From a virus, in IMG/VR virus record IMGVR_UViG_3300025978_000013, positions 1 to 43,311 of that record: a stretch of 43,311 nt of DNA. One strand, 5' to 3'. The stretch's first letter is position 1, and every line of letters starts with the position of its first letter. A program made the position numbers and the translations under genes. Shown here one piece after another: positions 6,223 through 42,924 of the stretch. The notes under the pieces are model-generated. The model saw only the letters and a list, made by a program, of their open reading frames with translations. It searched no databases and was not told the origin of the DNA.

Positions 6223-6810
6223 ATGACAACAATTCTGATCATCAGCCTTGCGCTAAATATCGTTCTTGCCGCCGCCGTCAAAACACTTGGAACCACTCAC
6301 TTCGGCACATTGTCGCCTGTCTTTACTCACGCGTACCTGCACCTACTCTCTGCCCTGCGTATCCCCTGCTCGGTTATCGTCTATGACATTCGCAAGATGC
6401 ACGAACTTAACGCCGTATTCGGTTACAGCAATAATAACCGTGACCTGATTCCGCGCCTGACCAAAGTCCGCCGCAGTCGTGGCGATTTGGTTGGGCAGTA
6501 CGGCGGTGATGAATTCGTTGTAATCGCAACGGCTCACGCCGGAAAAACAATCGCGCGGCGCATCATAGCGAGAGCGAAAGAAATCACGCAGAGCATGACG
6601 TTGGCACAGCGCCTTGAATTAAGCACGCGTACCGCCGGAATTGTTGACGGGTTGCACATCGCCCTGGCCTGCGAAGATTACACGCGGGACGCACTCAAAA
6701 CAGCGGCGGCGTTGGTTGACGAAACCGAACGGCTGAAAGAGTCCGGCGCAAGGCAAACTGGAAACCGCGCTACAACCGGCAATATTGGAACGCTTATTTC
6801 TGGACTATAG
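6223..6810 (+). CDS. Membrane-anchored GGDEF-domain protein (diguanylate cyclase-like), 195 aa
   Basis: ATG 6223 with AAGGAG upstream. Residues 3-20 are a membrane helix. The GGDEF fold follows: the metal aspartate D55 in YDIRKMHELN, guanine-contact N63, and an intact GGDEF signature at 94-98 (GQYGGDEFVV). Active members join two GTP into cyclic di-GMP, which steers motility, pili and biofilm. Departures from the canon: the residue aligned with the second guanine-binding Asp is Asn (N72), and the RxxD inhibitory site five residues before GGDEF reads SRGD, so product feedback should be lost. The domain is compact and has no sensor. Whether it makes c-di-GMP, binds it, or has another nucleotide role is open. 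Confidence 0.8.
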   Translation: MTTILIISLALNIVLAAAVKTLGTTHFGTLSPVFTHAYLHLLSALRIPCSVIVYDIRKMHELNAVFGYSNNNRDLIPRLTKVRRSRGDLVGQYGGDEFVVIATAHAGKTIARRIIARAKEITQSMTLAQRLELSTRTAGIVDGLHIALACEDYTRDALKTAAALVDETERLKESGARQTGNRATTGNIGTLISGL

Positions 6811-7695: not shown

Positions 7696-7965
7696 GGTTA
7701 GCGGGTTGACCCGTCACAAGCGGGACACGATGCTAACCGAAAAATACATTGCGGGTGGAGGGCAAGGCGTCCTATCAGGCCCATAACCTGAAAAAGCAGA
7801 TTTCGATTATCTGACCCGCAACAACCTTTATCAGATTAGTGGATAGCATGTATCGGGTCTGACGAAATGCAAATACAGTCTGCTTGGAAGTTGCAACCGG
7901 GTATCAATGCAGGCCGCCAACGTTGCAAGCGGTAAAGTTGCAAGCCGGAAAACGTAACCGGCACG
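7696..7965 (+). ncRNA. Candidate structured noncoding RNA / long leader
   Basis: This 412-bp gap has no convincing gene. Starting six bases after a promoter it shows nested pairing. GGTTAGC (7696-7702) pairs with GCTAACC (7732-7738) enclosing CCCG/CGGG. GCGGGT (7751-7756) pairs with ACCCGC (7814-7819) enclosing GGGC/GCCC and CAGAT/ATCTG. GTTGCAA then occurs three times between about 7885 and 7945, each followed by a CGG-type run. I do not recognise a known riboswitch, ribozyme or intron core. It could be a free ncRNA or a regulatory leader for the gene at 8055. Confidence 0.5.
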
Positions 7966-37597: not shown

Positions 37598-37626
37598 TTG
37601 TATTCACGGTATCATTGTGATACAAT
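37598..37626 (+). promoter_or_regulatory. Promoter of the cassette array, with overlapping operator
   Basis: TTGTAT (37598-37603), 17 bp, TACAAT (37621-37626). The inverted repeat GTATCA-TTG-TGATAC (37609-37623) overlaps spacer and -10. Transcription should start at about 37632-37633, at or one base before the GTG start codon, so the first mRNA would be leaderless. Confidence 0.75.
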
Positions 37627-37632
37627 CATACT

Positions 37633-37974
37633 GTGAATAAAGAGATAATCATTTTTACCGGAAAGTGCCCTTATTGCGACGAGCAAGTTCCGACGCCCGC
37701 CCCAGATATGATAAACAGGCGTCATCACTCGTGTTCGTGCGGTAAAAAACCCCACGCAACACGATACGATGACAAGGACGGGAATATTCACTTTTCGTAT
37801 TCGTCAAACCGCAATCATCAGACCGTACAGCCAGGCGGGATGAAAGGCATTAGCATCCGCCTTCCAGACTATCAAATCACCTGGATAGGAACAAGCGCCG
37901 CAGAGCGTATTAGGATGTTAATTGACATGGCTATACGGGAAGATGATTGTGATACAACGTTTTCTAAACCATAG
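37633..37974 (+). CDS. Zinc-ribbon protein upstream of the cassette array, 113 aa
   Basis: GTG 37633 coincides with the predicted transcription start (leaderless). Residues 11-36 hold CPYC...HHSCSCGKK, a four-ligand zinc ribbon. The C-terminal part (GISIRLPDYQITWIGTSAAERIRMLIDMAIRE) resembles ribbon-helix-helix-type segments. Its last codon and stop (CCATAG) run straight into GTTAGAC, the first core site of the cassette array. It could be the resident gene at the entry point. Confidence 0.7.
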   Translation: MNKEIIIFTGKCPYCDEQVPTPAPDMINRRHHSCSCGKKPHATRYDDKDGNIHFSYSSNRNHQTVQPGGMKGISIRLPDYQITWIGTSAAERIRMLIDMAIREDDCDTTFSKP

Positions 37975-37980
37975 TTAGAC
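37974..37980 (+). repeat. First GTTRRRY core site of the array
   Basis: GTTAGAC fits GTTRRRY. It is preceded by TTCTAAACCATA, a weak echo of the TAACGCNAACC box found before later core sites. No paired RYYYAAC box was found, so it is a possible attI-like entry site or a damaged attC. Confidence 0.5.
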
Positions 37981-38006
37981 CCCTATCTTGAAAAAGGAGA
38001 ATCGCA

Positions 38007-38201
38007 ATGGCAAAAAGAAAAGGTTATGCAATCGTCCGCGTTCACAAGCAAATTGAAATCGAGATTGACTTGGACGATGAAATTGAAGTTGACCAGCAAG
38101 CACTTGTCGAAAAAGCTGTTTCTGAAAAATTCGGAGAACTCAATTTTGAAATTGACGAACCCGATGAAGTTGAAATCCTTGAATGTGACTACGCCGAATA
38201 A
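38007..38201 (+). CDS. Cassette 1: acidic small protein, 64 aa
   Basis: ATG 38007 with AAGGAG upstream. Lys-rich strand, then an acidic alternating segment (HKQIEIEIDLDDEIEVDQQ) and an acidic C-terminus with ILECDYAE. No family recognised. Lies between core sites at 37974 and 38295, the gene plus its own attC, as an integron cassette. Confidence 0.75.
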   Translation: MAKRKGYAIVRVHKQIEIEIDLDDEIEVDQQALVEKAVSEKFGELNFEIDEPDEVEILECDYAE

Positions 38202-38211
38202 CATTGGCGGG

Positions 38212-38301
38212 GTCTAACAAAGCGTGCAGGCGACGTGGCGGTACAGCGCGGCTTATGGCATAGTTTCGCAACCGCCACGCGCCTAACGCCAACCGTTGGG
38301 C
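38212..38301 (+). repeat. attC-like site 1
   Basis: R'' GTCTAAC (38212) to R' GTTGGGC (38295-38301). Internal arms GTGGCGGT and ACCGCCAC pair, with GGCG/CGCC outside. L' is CTAACGCCAACC. Confidence 0.85.
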
Positions 38302-38324
38302 GGCTTCGCCCAGGAGAAAATCAC

Positions 38325-38558
38325 ATGCTTGAATTATCAATCAATGAATACTTCGTGGTTTGTGTTTTGTGCTGGAAACATGGCCCATCCGAGAAAACTA
38401 TTGAAAAGGCCGTGAAAACTGCGCGTTTGAGCGGTTGGGTTTATGTGCCAGATTTGGCAATGAATCGCTGCCCGGAATGTGCCGCCCAACACCGCGTGCA
38501 CCCGACCGCCGCTGGCGGGTCTACCAGCGACAATAATTCCGAAAGCGGCGGCGGGTAA
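38325..38558 (+). CDS. Cassette 2: Cys-rich small protein, 77 aa
   Basis: ATG 38325 with CAGGAG upstream. Cysteines in CVLC and RCPEC suggest a zinc-binding unit, a helix lies between them, and the last 25 residues (HPTAAGG...SESGGG) are encoded by the attC itself. The stop is the TAA of TAACGCC in the L' box. Confidence 0.75.
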   Translation: MLELSINEYFVVCVLCWKHGPSEKTIEKAVKTARLSGWVYVPDLAMNRCPECAAQHRVHPTAAGGSTSDNNSESGGG

Positions 38559-38573
38559 CGCCAGCCGTTAGGC
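38484..38573 (+). repeat. attC-like site 2
   Basis: R'' GCCCAAC (38484) to R' GTTAGGC (38567-38573), both perfect. CCCGACCGCCGC pairs with GCGGCGGCGGG. Overlaps the end of the cassette 2 gene. Confidence 0.9.
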
Positions 38574-38598
38574 GTTTACTTTTGAAAGGAGTAACCCC

Positions 38599-38751
38599 AT
38601 GAAATTCAAAGAAAAATTGCAAAAGTTATTTGAAGAATATCTGGCAACATTGGACGACACAGACAAAGACGAATACTACAATCACGAGCAGGGAATTGCA
38701 AAAGATGTTTTTGAAGAGTTTATGGCGTGGCTTGAAAAGCGCAACGCCTAA
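38599..38751 (+). CDS. Cassette 3: acidic helical protein, 50 aa
   Basis: ATG 38599 with GAAAGGAG upstream. Acidic, almost fully helical (FEEYLATLDDTDKDEYYN...FEEFMAWLEKRNA). The stop codon is the TAA inside GCCTAAC, the R'' box. No family recognised. Confidence 0.75.
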   Translation: MKFKEKLQKLFEEYLATLDDTDKDEYYNHEQGIAKDVFEEFMAWLEKRNA

Positions 38752-38837
38752 CAAAGCGTGCACCCGACAAGGGCGGGCGTAGGCTCTAAATCAATTATCA
38801 GGTTTGCCGCCCTTGCGGGTAACGCAAGCCGTTAGCC
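38746..38837 (+). repeat. attC-like site 3
   Basis: R'' GCCTAAC (38746) to R' GTTAGCC (38831-38837; one mismatch to GTTRRRY). CCCG-AAGGGCGG pairs with CCGCCCTT-CGGG. L'' AAAGCGTGCA is shared with site 1. Confidence 0.85.
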
Positions 38838-38852
38838 CGCGAAAGGAAAACA

Positions 38853-39176
38853 ATGTTTACTTTGCCAACGGAAGTAGGTCAGCGTATCGAGCAGGCTTTG
38901 GCGCAAAGAGTTTGCACCGCCAACGATGGCTCTTATATCAGGCGCTCATCTGGGCGACGCTGCGCCGGTCGCCCCACGAAATACACCGTTCATCTGGCGT
39001 CTGGTAAGCCCTTTATCATTACCGCGTACGATGACGGCGCGGCTGTTGAAATCGCCAATAAGCGCGTTCTAACATCGCGTGCACTGGACGGGGCTAAATG
39101 CTTTGTCTGCGGCAAACCATGCGGCGGCGGCGCACTTTGCGAGAAGTGCGAACTCCCCGAGACGCCCCGCCAGTAA
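38853..39176 (+). CDS. Cassette 4: protein with zinc knuckle, 107 aa
   Basis: ATG 38853 with GAAAGGAAAAC upstream. Middle part (GRPTKYTVHLASGKPFIITAYDDGAAVEIANKRV) is beta-rich; the C-terminus, encoded by the attC, has CFVCGKPCGGGALCEKC, a good zinc ribbon. Stop is the TAA of TAACGC. No family recognised. Confidence 0.75.
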   Translation: MFTLPTEVGQRIEQALAQRVCTANDGSYIRRSSGRRCAGRPTKYTVHLASGKPFIITAYDDGAAVEIANKRVLTSRALDGAKCFVCGKPCGGGALCEKCELPETPRQ

Positions 39177-39191
39177 CGCAAACCGTTAGCC
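39067..39191 (+). repeat. attC-like site 4
   Basis: R'' TTCTAAC (39067; one mismatch) to R' GTTAGCC (39185-39191). ACTGG-CGGGG pairs with CCCCG-CAGT. At 125 bp it is a long variant; its middle encodes the zinc ribbon of the cassette 4 gene. Confidence 0.75.
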
Positions 39192-39325
39192 GCTTCATTC
39201 GAGAAGCATGGGATTACATCGCAGATAGCCGCCCAACCACGCGCGCAGCGGACGTGTGCCACGTGTGTACTACGGTGTTTGTTCCGTCCGCCGAATATTG
39301 TCACGTTTGTGGCACACGCCGCTAA
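39185..39325 (+). pseudogene. Cassette 5: zinc-ribbon reading frame without a start
   Basis: This smallest cassette (149 bp) holds a frame reading FIREAWDYIADS...CHVC...EYCHVCGTRR to a TAA in TAACGCC. The frame has no ATG, GTG or TTG inside the cassette; the only ATG (39208) is out of frame and stops after six codons. It may be a truncated gene, or use ATT at 39197. Confidence 0.5.
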
Positions 39326-39340
39326 CGCCAGTCGTTGGGC
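39231..39340 (+). repeat. attC-like site 5
   Basis: R'' GCCCAAC (39231) to R' GTTGGGC (39334-39340), perfect complements. GCGG-CGTGTGCCAC pairs with GTGGCACACG-CCGC. Confidence 0.9.
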
Positions 39341-39368
39341 GTATACTTTGCAAAAGGAGATTTGAAAA

Positions 39369-39533
39369 ATGGCACAAAGAATAATCGTTGAGTACACATA
39401 TATCTTTTATTGCGATGGTGATTTTTTCGAGCAAAATACTTTTGATTCTGACGATGCTGCTATCAGGCACGCTAAAGCCGAAGAAGAGAAGCGCGGAAAA
39501 CCTGTGAAGGTTGCAAGATGGTTAGAGTTTTAG
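39369..39533 (+). CDS. Cassette 6: small protein, 54 aa
   Basis: ATG 39369 with AAAAGGAGATTTG upstream. Beta strands with aromatic residues (VEYTYIFYCDGDFF) then an acidic helix and a basic end (VKVARWLEF). A pattern of small alpha/beta plasmid-type proteins, no family recognised. The stop comes before the attC. Confidence 0.75.
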   Translation: MAQRIIVEYTYIFYCDGDFFEQNTFDSDDAAIRHAKAEEEKRGKPVKVARWLEF

Positions 39534-39544
39534 TTGAGAAATAC

Positions 39545-39671
39545 TCCCAACAGTTGCGCGCAGCGGACGGCTGAAACTCGTGCGCGTGTATGAAGAGTCG
39601 GAAGTCGAAGAAGTCTCCGTTGGCGAGTATCGGCTGAAGAACCGCCTCCGCTAACGCAAATCCGGTTGGAT
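39545..39671 (+). repeat. attC-like site 6
   Basis: R'' TCCCAAC (39545; first base off) to R' GTTGGAT (39665-39671, perfect). AGCGGA-GG pairs with CC-TCCGCT. Its middle contains a second open frame reading ...VRVYEESEVEEVSVGEYRLKNRLR to a TAA in TAACGC, with GTG as the only possible start. Confidence 0.7.
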
Positions 39672-39686
39672 TCTGAAAGGAAAATT

Positions 39687-39893
39687 ATGTTTACACCTGA
39701 ATTAGCAAGTTTGATTTGCGAAATTGATTTATCCACACCTGAAAAGATGTCCGCGTTCAAGGCGTGGCAGTTCGATGATGGCACACTGGAAGGCTTGCAA
39801 AAATTGTACGAAGCCCAACAAAGCGCGCAGCCGGTTAGTGTGCAAATTTCAGGGCTTACGGCAGATGGCGATGTTTTACCGCCGTGCCGCTAA
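39687..39893 (+). CDS. Cassette 7: unknown protein, 68 aa
   Basis: ATG 39687 with GAAAGGAAAATT upstream. Acidic helical N-terminus (LASLICEIDLSTPEKMSAFKAWQFDD), then attC-encoded tail ending PPCR. Stop is the TAA of TAACGC. No family recognised. Confidence 0.72.
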   Translation: MFTPELASLICEIDLSTPEKMSAFKAWQFDDGTLEGLQKLYEAQQSAQPVSVQISGLTADGDVLPPCR

Positions 39894-39908
39894 CGCAAAC
39901 CGCTGGGC
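39813..39908 (+). repeat. attC-like site 7
   Basis: R'' GCCCAAC (39813) to R' GCTGGGC (39902-39908; GTT changed to GCT). GCGGC- and GCCGC-type arms remain. The mutated core would be expected to recombine poorly. Confidence 0.7.
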
Positions 39909-39921
39909 GTATGCTTACACA

Positions 39922-40128
39922 ATGAAAATTCTTGCAAACATTCTCGGTAAGCCAGCAGCGTCGGCAACTTCAAAAGGCAAGTTGTGGCGCGGTCAGTATT
40001 ATGTCAAAAGCGGCTTTGTTGAAAGCGGATCGCCTATATGGTTAGAAACTCCTAATAAAGCGTTCACACGACTCTTGCTAGTCGTCAAGAAAATTCAATC
40101 ACTGGCGAGCGTCCGCAAAAGCCGGTAA
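39922..40128 (+). CDS. Cassette 8: basic small protein, 68 aa
   Basis: ATG 39922, weak ribosome site. Basic protein (MKILANILGKPAASATSKGKLWRGQYYVKSG) with a Lys/Arg-rich C-terminus ending VRKSR at a TAA in TAACGC. Homology unknown. Coding confidence is lower because the ribosome site is poor. Confidence 0.6.
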   Translation: MKILANILGKPAASATSKGKLWRGQYYVKSGFVESGSPIWLETPNKAFTRLLLVVKKIQSLASVRKSR

Positions 40129-40143
40129 CGCAAACCGTTAGCT
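40050..40143 (+). repeat. Degenerate attC-like site 8
   Basis: TCCTAATAAAGCG (from 40050) mirrors GCCTAACAAAGCG but has lost the AAC triplet. The 3' side TAACGCAAACC-GTTAGCT (40126-40143) is well kept. Probably decayed. Confidence 0.55.
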
Positions 40144-40169
40144 GGCAACTTGCCAGAAAGGAAAATTGT

Positions 40170-40382
40170 ATGCCTACTTTTATCAACCCAAATACTGGCT
40201 TCCCCGATGAAACGCCCTGTATTGGTTGTGGCTGGCCGCTGTATTGCTGCTTGTGCCCAGCCGATGACCAGGACGAAACAGAGAGCCAGCTAACACCGGT
40301 TGCGGCGAACTTGGCTACCACAGCCCCGGACGAGATAGACTTGCAACTAAAAGACTTACTCGACCAGGCTGATGGCGCGTAA
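40170..40382 (+). CDS. Cassette 9: zinc-ribbon protein, 70 aa
   Basis: ATG 40170 with GAAAGGAAAATTG upstream. Cysteines CIGCGWPLYCCLC (residues 17-29) form a compact metal knuckle. Acidic, helical C-terminus (EIDLQLKDLLDQADGA) to TAA. No family recognised. Confidence 0.75.
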   Translation: MPTFINPNTGFPDETPCIGCGWPLYCCLCPADDQDETESQLTPVAANLATTAPDEIDLQLKDLLDQADGA

Positions 40383-40412
40383 CACGCCAAGCCGCTAAAC
40401 CAACCGTTAGAC
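40288..40412 (+). repeat. attC-like site 9
   Basis: R'' AGCTAAC (40288; one mismatch) to R' GTTAGAC (40406-40412, perfect). GCGG-CTTGGC pairs with GCCAAG-CCGC. Confidence 0.7.
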
Positions 40413-40448
40413 CGCACCTTCATTCAAAGGTGCGTCAGGAGAATGAAA

Positions 40449-40622
40449 ATGGAAACACTCGAAGGAAAAACGCTCGACATCTTGAAAGCCGCTCTTGCCC
40501 AACTGCAAGCCGCAAAGCCGAATGACCGCTCAGAAATTGACAGGCGGTACGCCGTCGCCATCACCGAACAAGAGAAGGTTATTGCATATTATGATACCTT
40601 CGTCAATCGGGCAACGGTCTAA
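40449..40622 (+). CDS. Cassette 10: helical protein, 57 aa
   Basis: ATG 40449 with CAGGAG seven bases ahead; an in-frame ATG at 40443 is too close to it. All-helical (METLEGKTLDILKAALAQLQAAKP...DRRYAVAITEQEKVIAYYDTF). Stop is the TAA inside GTCTAAC, the R'' box. No family recognised. Confidence 0.75.
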   Translation: METLEGKTLDILKAALAQLQAAKPNDRSEIDRRYAVAITEQEKVIAYYDTFVNRATV

Positions 40623-40708
40623 CAAAGCGCGCAGCGGAATTGGGGCGGGCGTAGGTGTCCGCAGGTCAAGTACCAGCCGCCCCAATCCGCTAACGCTTGC
40701 CGCTAGGT
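40617..40708 (+). repeat. attC-like site 10
   Basis: R'' GTCTAAC (40617, perfect) to R' GCTAGGT (40702-40708; GTT changed to GCT). AGCGGA-TTGGGGCGG pairs with CCGCCCCAATCCGCT, the cleanest stem in the array. Confidence 0.8.
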
Positions 40709-40715
40709 GGCCTCC

Positions 40716-41030
40716 ATGCAAATTGTAGAAGTTGAATGGGTAGATAGTCAGGCTTTTGATGGCTGGCACGGTTCTGAAGAAATGAAAAACTGGAACGATT
40801 CTCTTGTGTGCAAATCCGTAGGATATTTGTTACGAGAGAGCGAAGACAGAATGGTTTTAGTTATGTCGGAGAGTTTCGGTTCTGGGGCACTCGATAATGG
40901 AATGACAATTCCGCGCGTTGCCATTATCCAAATACGCCACCTAACAAAGCGGGAACCAGACGCGCGAAAGTCTGGCGCGAAAATCGTATCATCCAAATCA
41001 AAAAGGTCTGCAAAACCCGCGCGCCGGTAA
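40716..41030 (+). CDS. Cassette 11: unknown protein, 104 aa
   Basis: ATG 40716 (a GTG lies three codons earlier). N-terminal strand and acidic loop (VEVEWVDSQAFDGWHGSEEMKNW), then DRMVLVMSESFGSGALDNGMTIPRVAIIQIRHL, which looks like a small conserved phage/plasmid domain with a beta core. Basic attC-encoded tail to TAA. Function unknown. Confidence 0.72.
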   Translation: MQIVEVEWVDSQAFDGWHGSEEMKNWNDSLVCKSVGYLLRESEDRMVLVMSESFGSGALDNGMTIPRVAIIQIRHLTKREPDARKSGAKIVSSKSKRSAKPARR

Positions 41031-41045
41031 TGCAAACCGTTAGAA
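40939..41045 (+). repeat. attC-like site 11, end of array
   Basis: R'' ACCTAAC (40939, perfect) to R' GTTAGAA (41039-41045; last base off). L'' AAAGCGGG and L' TAATGCAAACC are kept. Cassette-type sequence ends here. Confidence 0.75.
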
Positions 41046-41052
41046 AGCACCA

Positions 41053-41074
41053 AACATCCCCGTGCGGGGATGTT
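41053..41074 (+). terminator. Hairpin after the cassette array
   Basis: AACATCCCC (41053-41061) pairs with GGGGATGTT (41066-41074), loop GTGC. Only a weak T-run follows (CTGTT), so termination may be partial. It separates the array from the next promoter. Confidence 0.6.
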
Positions 41075-41086
41075 CTGTTACACGCT

Positions 41087-41114
41087 TTGACCTGCGCCTA
41101 ATCGGATGTATAAT
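41087..41114 (+). promoter_or_regulatory. Promoter of the phosphoesterase gene
   Basis: TTGACC (41087-41092), 16 bp, perfect TATAAT (41109-41114), then a 28-base leader with AGAAAGGGG. Confidence 0.75.
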
Positions 41115-41148
41115 ATAGGCATGGGTGAAAATTAGAAAGGGGAAAATC

Positions 41149-41997
41149 ATGCACACAACCGAGAGAATATCGGGGAATGTTATCTACGTTCGGTTTGATG
41201 AAATTAAAAGCGGGTGGGAGCAGTGGCTGCTACTTTCAAGTGATCGGCATTTTGACAGCGCACACTCTGACAGACAATTACAAAAATATCATCTTGAAAA
41301 AGCAGTAGAGCGAAACGCGCTAGTAGTTGACAACGGGGACATATTCGACGCCATGCAGGGCCGCAATGACCCACGCTCCAGCTATGCCGAATTACGCCCT
41401 GAGTACGTGGGACGCCCGGATTATTTCAATGCCATCGTAAATGACTCCGCTGACTTTTACCGTCCGTATTCCAAAAATATTCTGATGCTGGGAAAAGGAA
41501 ACCACGAAACAAGTGTGGAAAAGAAAAATCAAATTGATCTGATCAGCATGTTGATTGCGAAACTTGCCCCGGGCCCGCTGGCTGGGGGTTATGGTGGCTA
41601 TATTAAGTTTGGTTTCAGGCGGGGCACTTGGCAGAAAAGTATCAATCTAAAATATATGCACGGTTGGGGAGGCGGCGGCCCGGTAACGCGCGGGGTAATC
41701 GATACAAACCGGCAGGCGGTCTACTTACCAGATGCGGATATTGTTATCAACGGGCATACCCACGATAGCTGGTATATGCCGATTGCTCGTGAGAGATTTG
41801 ACCAAAACGCAAAAATCACCCATGACATAATTCATTTTGTGCGCACCCCAACCTATAAAGATGATTTCGGGGATGGTTCAGGCGGCTGGCATGTCGAAAC
41901 GGGGAAACCGCCGAAGCCAAAAGGCTGTGTGTGGTTGCGATTTTATTATTGGAGCGAAGATATACATATCGAAGTTATCCCCGACATTACAGCCTGA
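41149..41997 (+). CDS. Calcineurin-like metallophosphoesterase, 282 aa
   Basis: ATG 41149 with GAAAGGGGAAAA upstream. All binuclear metal motifs are present: SDRHFD (Asp32-x-His34), NGDIFD (Asp64), GKGNHE (117-120), an HGW near 176 and GHTHD near 206. The fold hydrolyses phosphodiesters or phosphomonoesters; phage members act on nucleic-acid ends or nucleotides, and the substrate here cannot be told. It has its own promoter and terminator and stands alone beside the cassette array. Confidence 0.85.
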   Translation: MHTTERISGNVIYVRFDEIKSGWEQWLLLSSDRHFDSAHSDRQLQKYHLEKAVERNALVVDNGDIFDAMQGRNDPRSSYAELRPEYVGRPDYFNAIVNDSADFYRPYSKNILMLGKGNHETSVEKKNQIDLISMLIAKLAPGPLAGGYGGYIKFGFRRGTWQKSINLKYMHGWGGGGPVTRGVIDTNRQAVYLPDADIVINGHTHDSWYMPIARERFDQNAKITHDIIHFVRTPTYKDDFGDGSGGWHVETGKPPKPKGCVWLRFYYWSEDIHIEVIPDITA

Positions 41998-42540: not shown

Positions 42541-42924
42541 TTATGCAATCCAGAAATCAACGCCGGGAAAGTTTTTATTAACTTCGTGCCCGGCATAAAT
42601 TGGAATGAAATGATTCACGTCATCATCGGGAATATAGCCAGCCGCCACCATTGCATCGGCCAAGCCTTGAACCATATTTATAAAATCCCAGCGGGCGTTA
42701 GTTTTACGACGAAAACAAATCATAATCCAATACGGATATTCAAGCCCTTCGACCATCTCAAGCCATCTGACGCGCTGCTCCGCTAGTTGGTCGGTAATCA
42801 TTGATTCGTCCGCCTTGGCTGCTTTGCTCTTGGCAACGTAGGGCTTTCCGGTACGCCGGTTACGGTGTATTTCGCGGCTATTTTTGCTACTATGTATTTC
42901 GCCGTAAATTTTAATCATTGGCAT
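42541..42924 (-). CDS. RusA-like Holliday junction resolvase, 127 aa
   Basis: ATG 42924 with AGGA upstream, overlapping the HNH gene by 14 bp. The second half is RusA-like: ARWDFINMVQGLADAMVAAGYIPDDDVNHF with the aspartates expected of the metal site, and GHEVNKNFPGVDFWI as the last strand. Dimeric RusA cuts four-way junctions. It would resolve intermediates from the RecT-like pathway before packaging. Confidence 0.78.
   Translation of the reverse strand: MPMIKIYGEIHSSKNSREIHRNRRTGKPYVAKSKAAKADESMITDQLAEQRVRWLEMVEGLEYPYWIMICFRRKTNARWDFINMVQGLADAMVAAGYIPDDDVNHFIPIYAGHEVNKNFPGVDFWIA

Follow-up and report, generated by a model that had tools for sequence, protein, structure and literature searches.

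Arrays of integron gene cassettes that lack an integrase (clusters of attC sites lacking integrases, CALINs) have already been described in phages. Among 10,705 phage genomes surveyed, 17 CALINs and three complete integrons came to light, and phage attC sites were recombined by IntI1 in an assay, with methyltransferase cassettes described among those carried (Qi et al. 2023, PMC9892861). In this study we examine an array of the same general layout in the IMG/VR virus record IMGVR_UViG_3300025978_000013, a contig of 43,311 bases, classed as linear and originating from an environmental sample, the whole length of which is hereafter called the window. The array consists of eleven integron-type units of 149-354 bp, located at positions 37974-41045 and all on the plus strand. 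Our analyses make it very probable that it constitutes a genuine CALIN resident in a tailed phage, in which cassettes are taken up, carried and passed on. A first-pass annotation of the sequence had proposed such an array inside a phage genome, with the phage acting as a shuttle for cassettes, and both proposals gained support from the comparisons reported below.

Identity of the attC sites and the own-core signature

The window was screened with a covariance model (R1) built from an alignment of 29 attC-like sites, all of them located on other contigs of viruses and genomes. These seed sites had been collected using a DNA pattern taken from the window; R1 is therefore independent of the window as regards sequence, but not as regards the choice of motif. 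Ten of the eleven sites were recovered. Nine scored 43-78 bits, with E values from 6e-19 to 1.5e-9, and the tenth, attC6, scored 19.6 bits (E 0.005), while the best place outside the sites reached 14.8 bits, which is chance level. The site left undetected, attC9, bears a degenerate L' box (TAAACC for TAACGC). A covariance search of the kind suggested in the first-pass annotation yielded, within 3.1 kb and on one strand, ten sites recognized by an independent model plus one degenerate site.

The fold of these sites, comprising the R''-R' and L''-L' stems and an inner arm, contains 22 pairs and leaves 84.6% of the cells paired, a level reached by none of 500 shuffles. Changes on both sides of the stem were found in 36 cells as compared with 16 expected, and pairing dropped to approximately 35% when the structure was slid by 1-3 bases. 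One unpaired A is conserved in the inner arm, so that the sites form the imperfect R''/R' and L''/L' hairpin with unpaired bases on one arm that characterizes attC; those from outside the window showed a similar pairing behaviour.

Integron integrases cut between the G and the TTRRRY of the core site, and in the excised circle the first bases of a cassette are joined to its own R'. As a consequence, R'' should agree with the core that opens its own unit, whereas agreement with the next core is not required. In the window, R'' accumulated 12 mismatches to its own core as compared with 20.9 in shuffles (p=0.001), with five exact matches in eleven units, versus 19 mismatches to the next core, for which shuffles gave 21.2 (p=0.27). 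The signature was clearer elsewhere: own cores matched exactly in 48/60 cases in a first set of 15 further virus records (8 expected; next core 7/60, 8 expected) and in 32/54 cases in a second set (4.8 expected; next core 4/54, 4.8 expected), i.e. 80/114 when both sets are pooled, for approximately 13 expected, and in 30/34 cases in chromosomal arrays. Such matching is predicted neither by terminators nor by tandem duplication. It is also stronger evidence than the pairing of R'' with the following core invoked previously; the four outer pairs then named as perfect or near-perfect show 2, 1, 0 and 3 mismatches, perfect pairing thus not being the rule.

It is scarcely credible, in view of these results, that the hairpins are ordinary intergenic repeats of the phage, namely terminators or tandem duplication units. 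Although hairpins are common between small phage genes, and a promoter and terminator scan listed two hairpin-like sites on the plus strand within the array, the sequence boxes, the asymmetric unpaired base, the single orientation and the preference for the own over the next core argue against such repeats, as does the location of the same sites directly next to integron integrases, in one case in a Chloroflexota genome (G021:C358) and in another in the phage record G011.

Phage residence and movement of single cassettes

The window record is probably a fragment of a tailed-phage genome. Terminase, portal, head and tail genes occur in one cluster, the gene set including small and large terminase, portal, major head protein, tape measure, endolysin and a DNA methyltransferase, together with genes coding for a VapE-type helicase, a primase-polymerase and a RecT-like protein. 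Deposited phages resembled its head protein at only about 25% identity, the array DNA had no match in 50,697 deposited phage records, and Rfam, at its gathering threshold, matched nothing in the window.

The array could alternatively be host DNA, with the contig covering both a chromosomal integron and a prophage located next to it or within it. This appears very improbable for the window, in which the array is flanked by phage lysis genes on one side and a phage nuclease gene on the other, no phage integrase was found, and array and phage have the same GC content (0.50 and 0.504, respectively). Furthermore, attC clusters are located deep inside nine other virus records (G006, G012, G013, G500, G501, G503, G508, G510 and G512). 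Nevertheless, a Vibrio prophage is known to excise at attC sites (PMC9892861), and G001, G003 and G011 are among the records with arrays only at a contig end or beside a tyrosine recombinase.

The other records derive from two pattern scans of IMG/VR, which returned 15 and 18 stretches from 30 further records, approximately 29 of them distinct because G504 and G511 are nearly identical. R1 matches were present in all 30. The large terminase was matched in 6/15 records of the first scan and 8/15 of the second, and others share structural genes with the window, so that many of the records are plainly of phage origin; in some, the arrays occur solely at contig ends, so that phage residence cannot be judged from those records. 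Among the records with interior clusters, the cluster of G013 lies just 3' of the terminase, G501 codes for a head protein 62% identical to that of the window, and G512 has a confirmed tape measure gene. Cassettes of the relatives encode N6/N4 DNA methyltransferases, with one weak match to a cytosine methylase. The position of the array differs among phages related by head protein, and seven head-protein relatives picked regardless of attC, including the sister record G025 (39 kb) and G028 (45 kb), contained no attC sites, indicating that the array is patchily distributed among relatives. Several attC clusters per genome, at separate places and on both strands, were observed in G012, G013 and G510. 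Tyrosine recombinase genes of one family adjoin attC arrays at G001:31211-32149, G003:28458-29423 and G011:19375-20364.

Single cassettes are shared between phages. Residues 1-71 of the cassette 4 product are 80% identical to that of a cassette gene in the 56-kb phage record G510 (L159:8966-9211, minus strand); the similarity stops at the start of attC, where the inner arms differ and yet each pairs with itself. Cassette 3 is 51% identical over 45 amino acids to a cassette of phage record G014 (L050:1114-1341). In both cases the neighbours of the homologues are unrelated, and further scans for the two cassettes returned only these homologues; for cassette 11, IMG/VR contained no relative. Cassette 2 and record G509 show a similarity that falls inside attC and was not counted. 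Comparison of related phage contigs, as had been recommended, showed that one 562-bp cassette is common to G013 and G512, the DNA identity being 85% inside it and at background level outside, with both ends falling at cores, and that G006 and G512 have homologous flanking genes (80% and 70% DNA identity) at one locus and no cassette in common. Taken with the own-core signature, the ends of the 562-bp cassette point to crossover between G and TTRRRY. The ratio of nonsynonymous to synonymous divergence (dN/dS) is 0.12-0.21 in shared cassette genes, and approximately 0.19 in that of cassette 4; these genes are therefore selected as proteins.

The same comparisons bear on the possibility that a ready-made piece of a host integron was captured once, by illegitimate or homologous recombination, and that its cassettes have been static since. 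We consider this unlikely, as homologues of cassettes 3 and 4 reside in different phages beside unrelated neighbours, the cassettes at one locus differ between related phages, and arrays occupy different places in phages related by head protein. A block of this kind would, however, account for the lack of an integrase on the contig for the degradation of several window sites, and for the exact match of R'' to the own core in only 5/11 units. Cassette length also argues against random blocks, from which the much shorter cassettes of phages would not be expected: the median is 343 bp in phages (n=125) and 853 bp (n=34) in two host metagenome-assembled genomes (MAGs), a host sample so small that the generality of the contrast is uncertain. 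Whether this group of uncultivated phages keeps a pool of unusually small cassettes of its own, exchanged singly by way of host integrons or of a phage-borne IntI like that of G011, is a more tentative matter; the arrays might then represent a standing exchange system for accessory genes and not by-catch from hosts, an idea that we consider somewhat doubtful.

We favour the view of the array as a CALIN that is loaded and unloaded cassette by cassette. A cassette would arrive as a circle, the bottom strand of its attC folding into a hairpin, and an integron integrase present in the infected cell would, as the sequence signature suggests, cut between G and TTRRRY and join it in. The phage would thereby draw on a cassette pool common to other phages and probably also to host chromosomal integrons.

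Several observations weigh against this view. Three or four of the window sites are degraded (attC9 is degenerate, attC8 has lost its R'' pairing and attC6 is weak), and parts of the array may no longer be mobile. The window record, itself a fragment, contains no match to the integron integrase model (TIGR02249). An empty site between these two flanks was not encountered in any relative, and insertion at G|TT is here reconstructed from the junction only. Finally, a chimeric join of the contig is possible, yet the right-flank gene recurs in the array-bearing phage G500.

Layout, flanks and probable expression of the array

Twelve core sites delimit the eleven units (37974, 38295, 38567, 38831, 39185, 39334, 39665, 39902, 40137, 40406, 40702 and 41039), in agreement with the number, size and single orientation announced in the first-pass annotation. 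An own open reading frame (ORF) is present in 10/11 units, and 8/11 frames end inside L' (TAACGC or TAATGC) or R'', which bears out the frequent placement of stop codons in attC boxes noted earlier (Table 1). The accompanying claim that each unit has a ribosome site and a small gene was valid for most units, with the exception of unit 5, devoid of a start codon, and unit 8, in which the ribosome site is not clear. Only sub-threshold Pfam matches were obtained for the cassette proteins of the window, none of them reaching the curated cut-off of a family.

Table 1. Features of the array and its flanks in the window. R1, score of the covariance model; aa, amino acids; own core, comparison of R'' with the core at the start of the same unit.
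Feature	Position	Strand	ORF	attC site	R1 (bits)	Remarks
Palindrome	37601..37639					18-nt arms, 89% complementary; overlaps TTGTAT-N17-TACAAT promoter-like sequence and GTG start of the gene at 37633
Gene upstream of array	37633..37974	+	113 aa			Cys pairs (CPYC...CSC); no family match
Cassette 1	37975..38295	+	38007-38201 (64 aa)	38212-38301	73.9	AAGGAG ribosome site; R'' GTCTAAC is the reverse complement of own core GTTAGAC
Cassette 2	38296..38567	+	38325-38558 (77 aa)	38484-38573	61.3	Stop in L'; own core exact
Cassette 3	38568..38831	+	38599-38751 (50 aa)	38746-38837	77.8	Stop in R''; own core exact
Cassette 4	38832..39185	+	38853-39176 (107 aa)	39067-39191	55.8	ORF extends through attC4; stop in L'
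Unit 5	39186..39334	+		39231-39340	49.6	149 bp, nearly all attC5; no own start codon; stop in L'
Cassette 6	39335..39665	+	39369-39533 (54 aa)	39545-39671	19.6	ORF with AAAAGGAG; attC6 weak
Cassette 7	39666..39902	+	39687-39893 (68 aa)	39813-39908	43.5	Stop in L'
Cassette 8	39903..40137	+	39922-40128 (68 aa)	40050-40143	48.6	Stop in L'; R'' degraded
Cassette 9	40138..40406	+	40170-40382 (70 aa)	40288-40412		Degenerate L', missed by R1; arms pair; R'' AGCTAAC exact match to own core GTTAGCT
Cassette 10	40407..40702	+	40449-40622 (57 aa)	40617-40708	49.4	Stop in R''; own core exact
Cassette 11	40703..41039	+	40716-41030 (104 aa)	40939-41045	60.1	Stop in L'; own core 1 mismatch
Hairpin	41052..41075	+				10-pair stem directly 3' of last core; listed on the minus strand by the scan; few T on the plus strand
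Metallophosphoesterase/exonuclease-like gene	41125..41997	+				Right boundary; phrog_7339, PF00149
Right-flank gene	42541..42924	-				50% identical homologue 1.2 kb from attC array in terminase-bearing phage record G500

The frame of unit 5 enters from unit 4 and is continuous with ORF 39098-39325, in which the complementary arms of attC5 are translated as two Cys-X2-Cys knuckles with weak matches to zinc ribbons; attC sequence may double here as the coding sequence of zinc knuckles.

At the left end, the TAG stop codon of the gene at 37633 contributes the G of the first core, G|TTAGAC. When both flanks are joined in silico, the sequence CCATAG|TTAGAAAG is obtained, which suggests that the array grew at a single GTTAGAA located between the stop codon of this gene and the hairpin. 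Relatives identified through the nuclease on the right flank (45-48% identity) did not reveal an empty site, being either too short or too distant.

The array itself is promoterless and would probably be read as one operon of small accessory genes, in the form of a single regulated transcript starting upstream of the gene at 37633. The palindrome region there is likely to be a regulated promoter for the whole array, judging from its promoter-like sequence, which was read by eye and is absent from the listing of a consensus promoter scan. A further copy of GTATCATTGT lies 40 bp upstream of the palindrome, which has the look of an operator. The hairpin behind the last core is the probable end of the transcript, and the nuclease gene that follows has a promoter-like site of its own (TTGACC-N16-TATAAT, 41087-41114).

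In the remainder of the window, the phage gene at 6223-6810 matched GGDEF (diguanylate cyclase) at 28.7 bits, which is unusual for a phage, and a gene for tRNA-Met (CAT) occupies positions 7750-7822 of the early region.

Possible source of the integrase and comparison with known systems

The window holds neither of the two components that complete an integron, given that intI is missing from the record and no attI was recognized at the left end of the array. In a Chloroflexota genome, the integron integrase G021:C358 (382 bits) is followed 377 bp downstream by the same type of attC. This type was matched in 73/249 genomes of the Chloroflexota class to which MAG JPNG_maxbin.044 belongs, often several times per genome, and an integron integrase above the cut-off was detected in 44/150 genomes sampled from the same class. 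The attC family sought in Chloroflexota genomes with IntI was thus encountered there, but also in 11/75 genomes of a control class, the one to which a Brocadia MAG belongs, and the notion that it is exclusive to Chloroflexota was dropped. The portal gene of the window was not found in any of 396 genomes of the Chloroflexota class, and Chloroflexota are a candidate, still unproven, host of the window phage. In a 1.2-Mb MAG (G022, L058-L066), short contigs bear 47 attC sites while a full-length IntI is lacking; these sites may represent binning contamination from a large chromosomal integron.

Phages can carry the enzyme as well. The 36.7-kb phage record G011 codes for an IntI of 329 amino acids (L049:2361-3350, equivalent to G011:C1:20361-21350; 411 bits) with an attC approximately 150 bp downstream. 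Most integrases sampled from the Chloroflexota class share 50-60% identity with this IntI, as compared with 42-43% for two others, namely the one beside attC in the Chloroflexota genome mentioned above and one in a Brocadia MAG. A second tyrosine recombinase gene lies immediately upstream of the G011 IntI, and the genome may be circular, given the pieces of F11-family genes at the two contig ends. An integrase supplied by the host is the simplest reading for the window, a phage-borne enzyme being a possible source. We infer that the host provides the enzyme, that the array is expressed and that it benefits the phage.

Until now, attC clusters in phages had been known as isolated cases, and the working of their cassettes had been shown only in a laboratory assay. 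Shared single cassettes and differences at one locus make the natural traffic of cassettes through phages directly testable. They also uncover a pool of small phage genes, including the DNA methyltransferases of the relatives, which may contribute to the contest between phages and host defence.

Compared with the systems known, the array is of the same kind as the phage CALINs of Qi et al. (PMC9892861) and is not the first attC cluster borne by a phage. Those clusters, like that of the window, lack an integrase; they occur in temperate and virulent tailed phages and their cassettes often code for DNA methyltransferases, as is also the case in relatives of the window. A characterized example among them, phage TJE1, has three attC sites, as compared with eleven here. 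The chromosomal integrons of Chloroflexota, in the class of MAG JPNG_maxbin.044, share with the phage arrays the matches to the attC model and the own-core signature, but differ in their longer cassettes (for the two MAGs considered), whereas the window array lacks an integrase and is located in a phage operon. The complete integron of G011 has the attC type of the window, in a phage with homologous tail genes, and differs in having its own IntI and only one attC found. What is new, with respect to the CALINs described previously, is the size of the array, the occurrence of one attC type across approximately 30 records of uncultivated viruses, and the comparative evidence that cassettes move one by one between phages, single cassettes being common to different phage backbones with breakpoints at the core.

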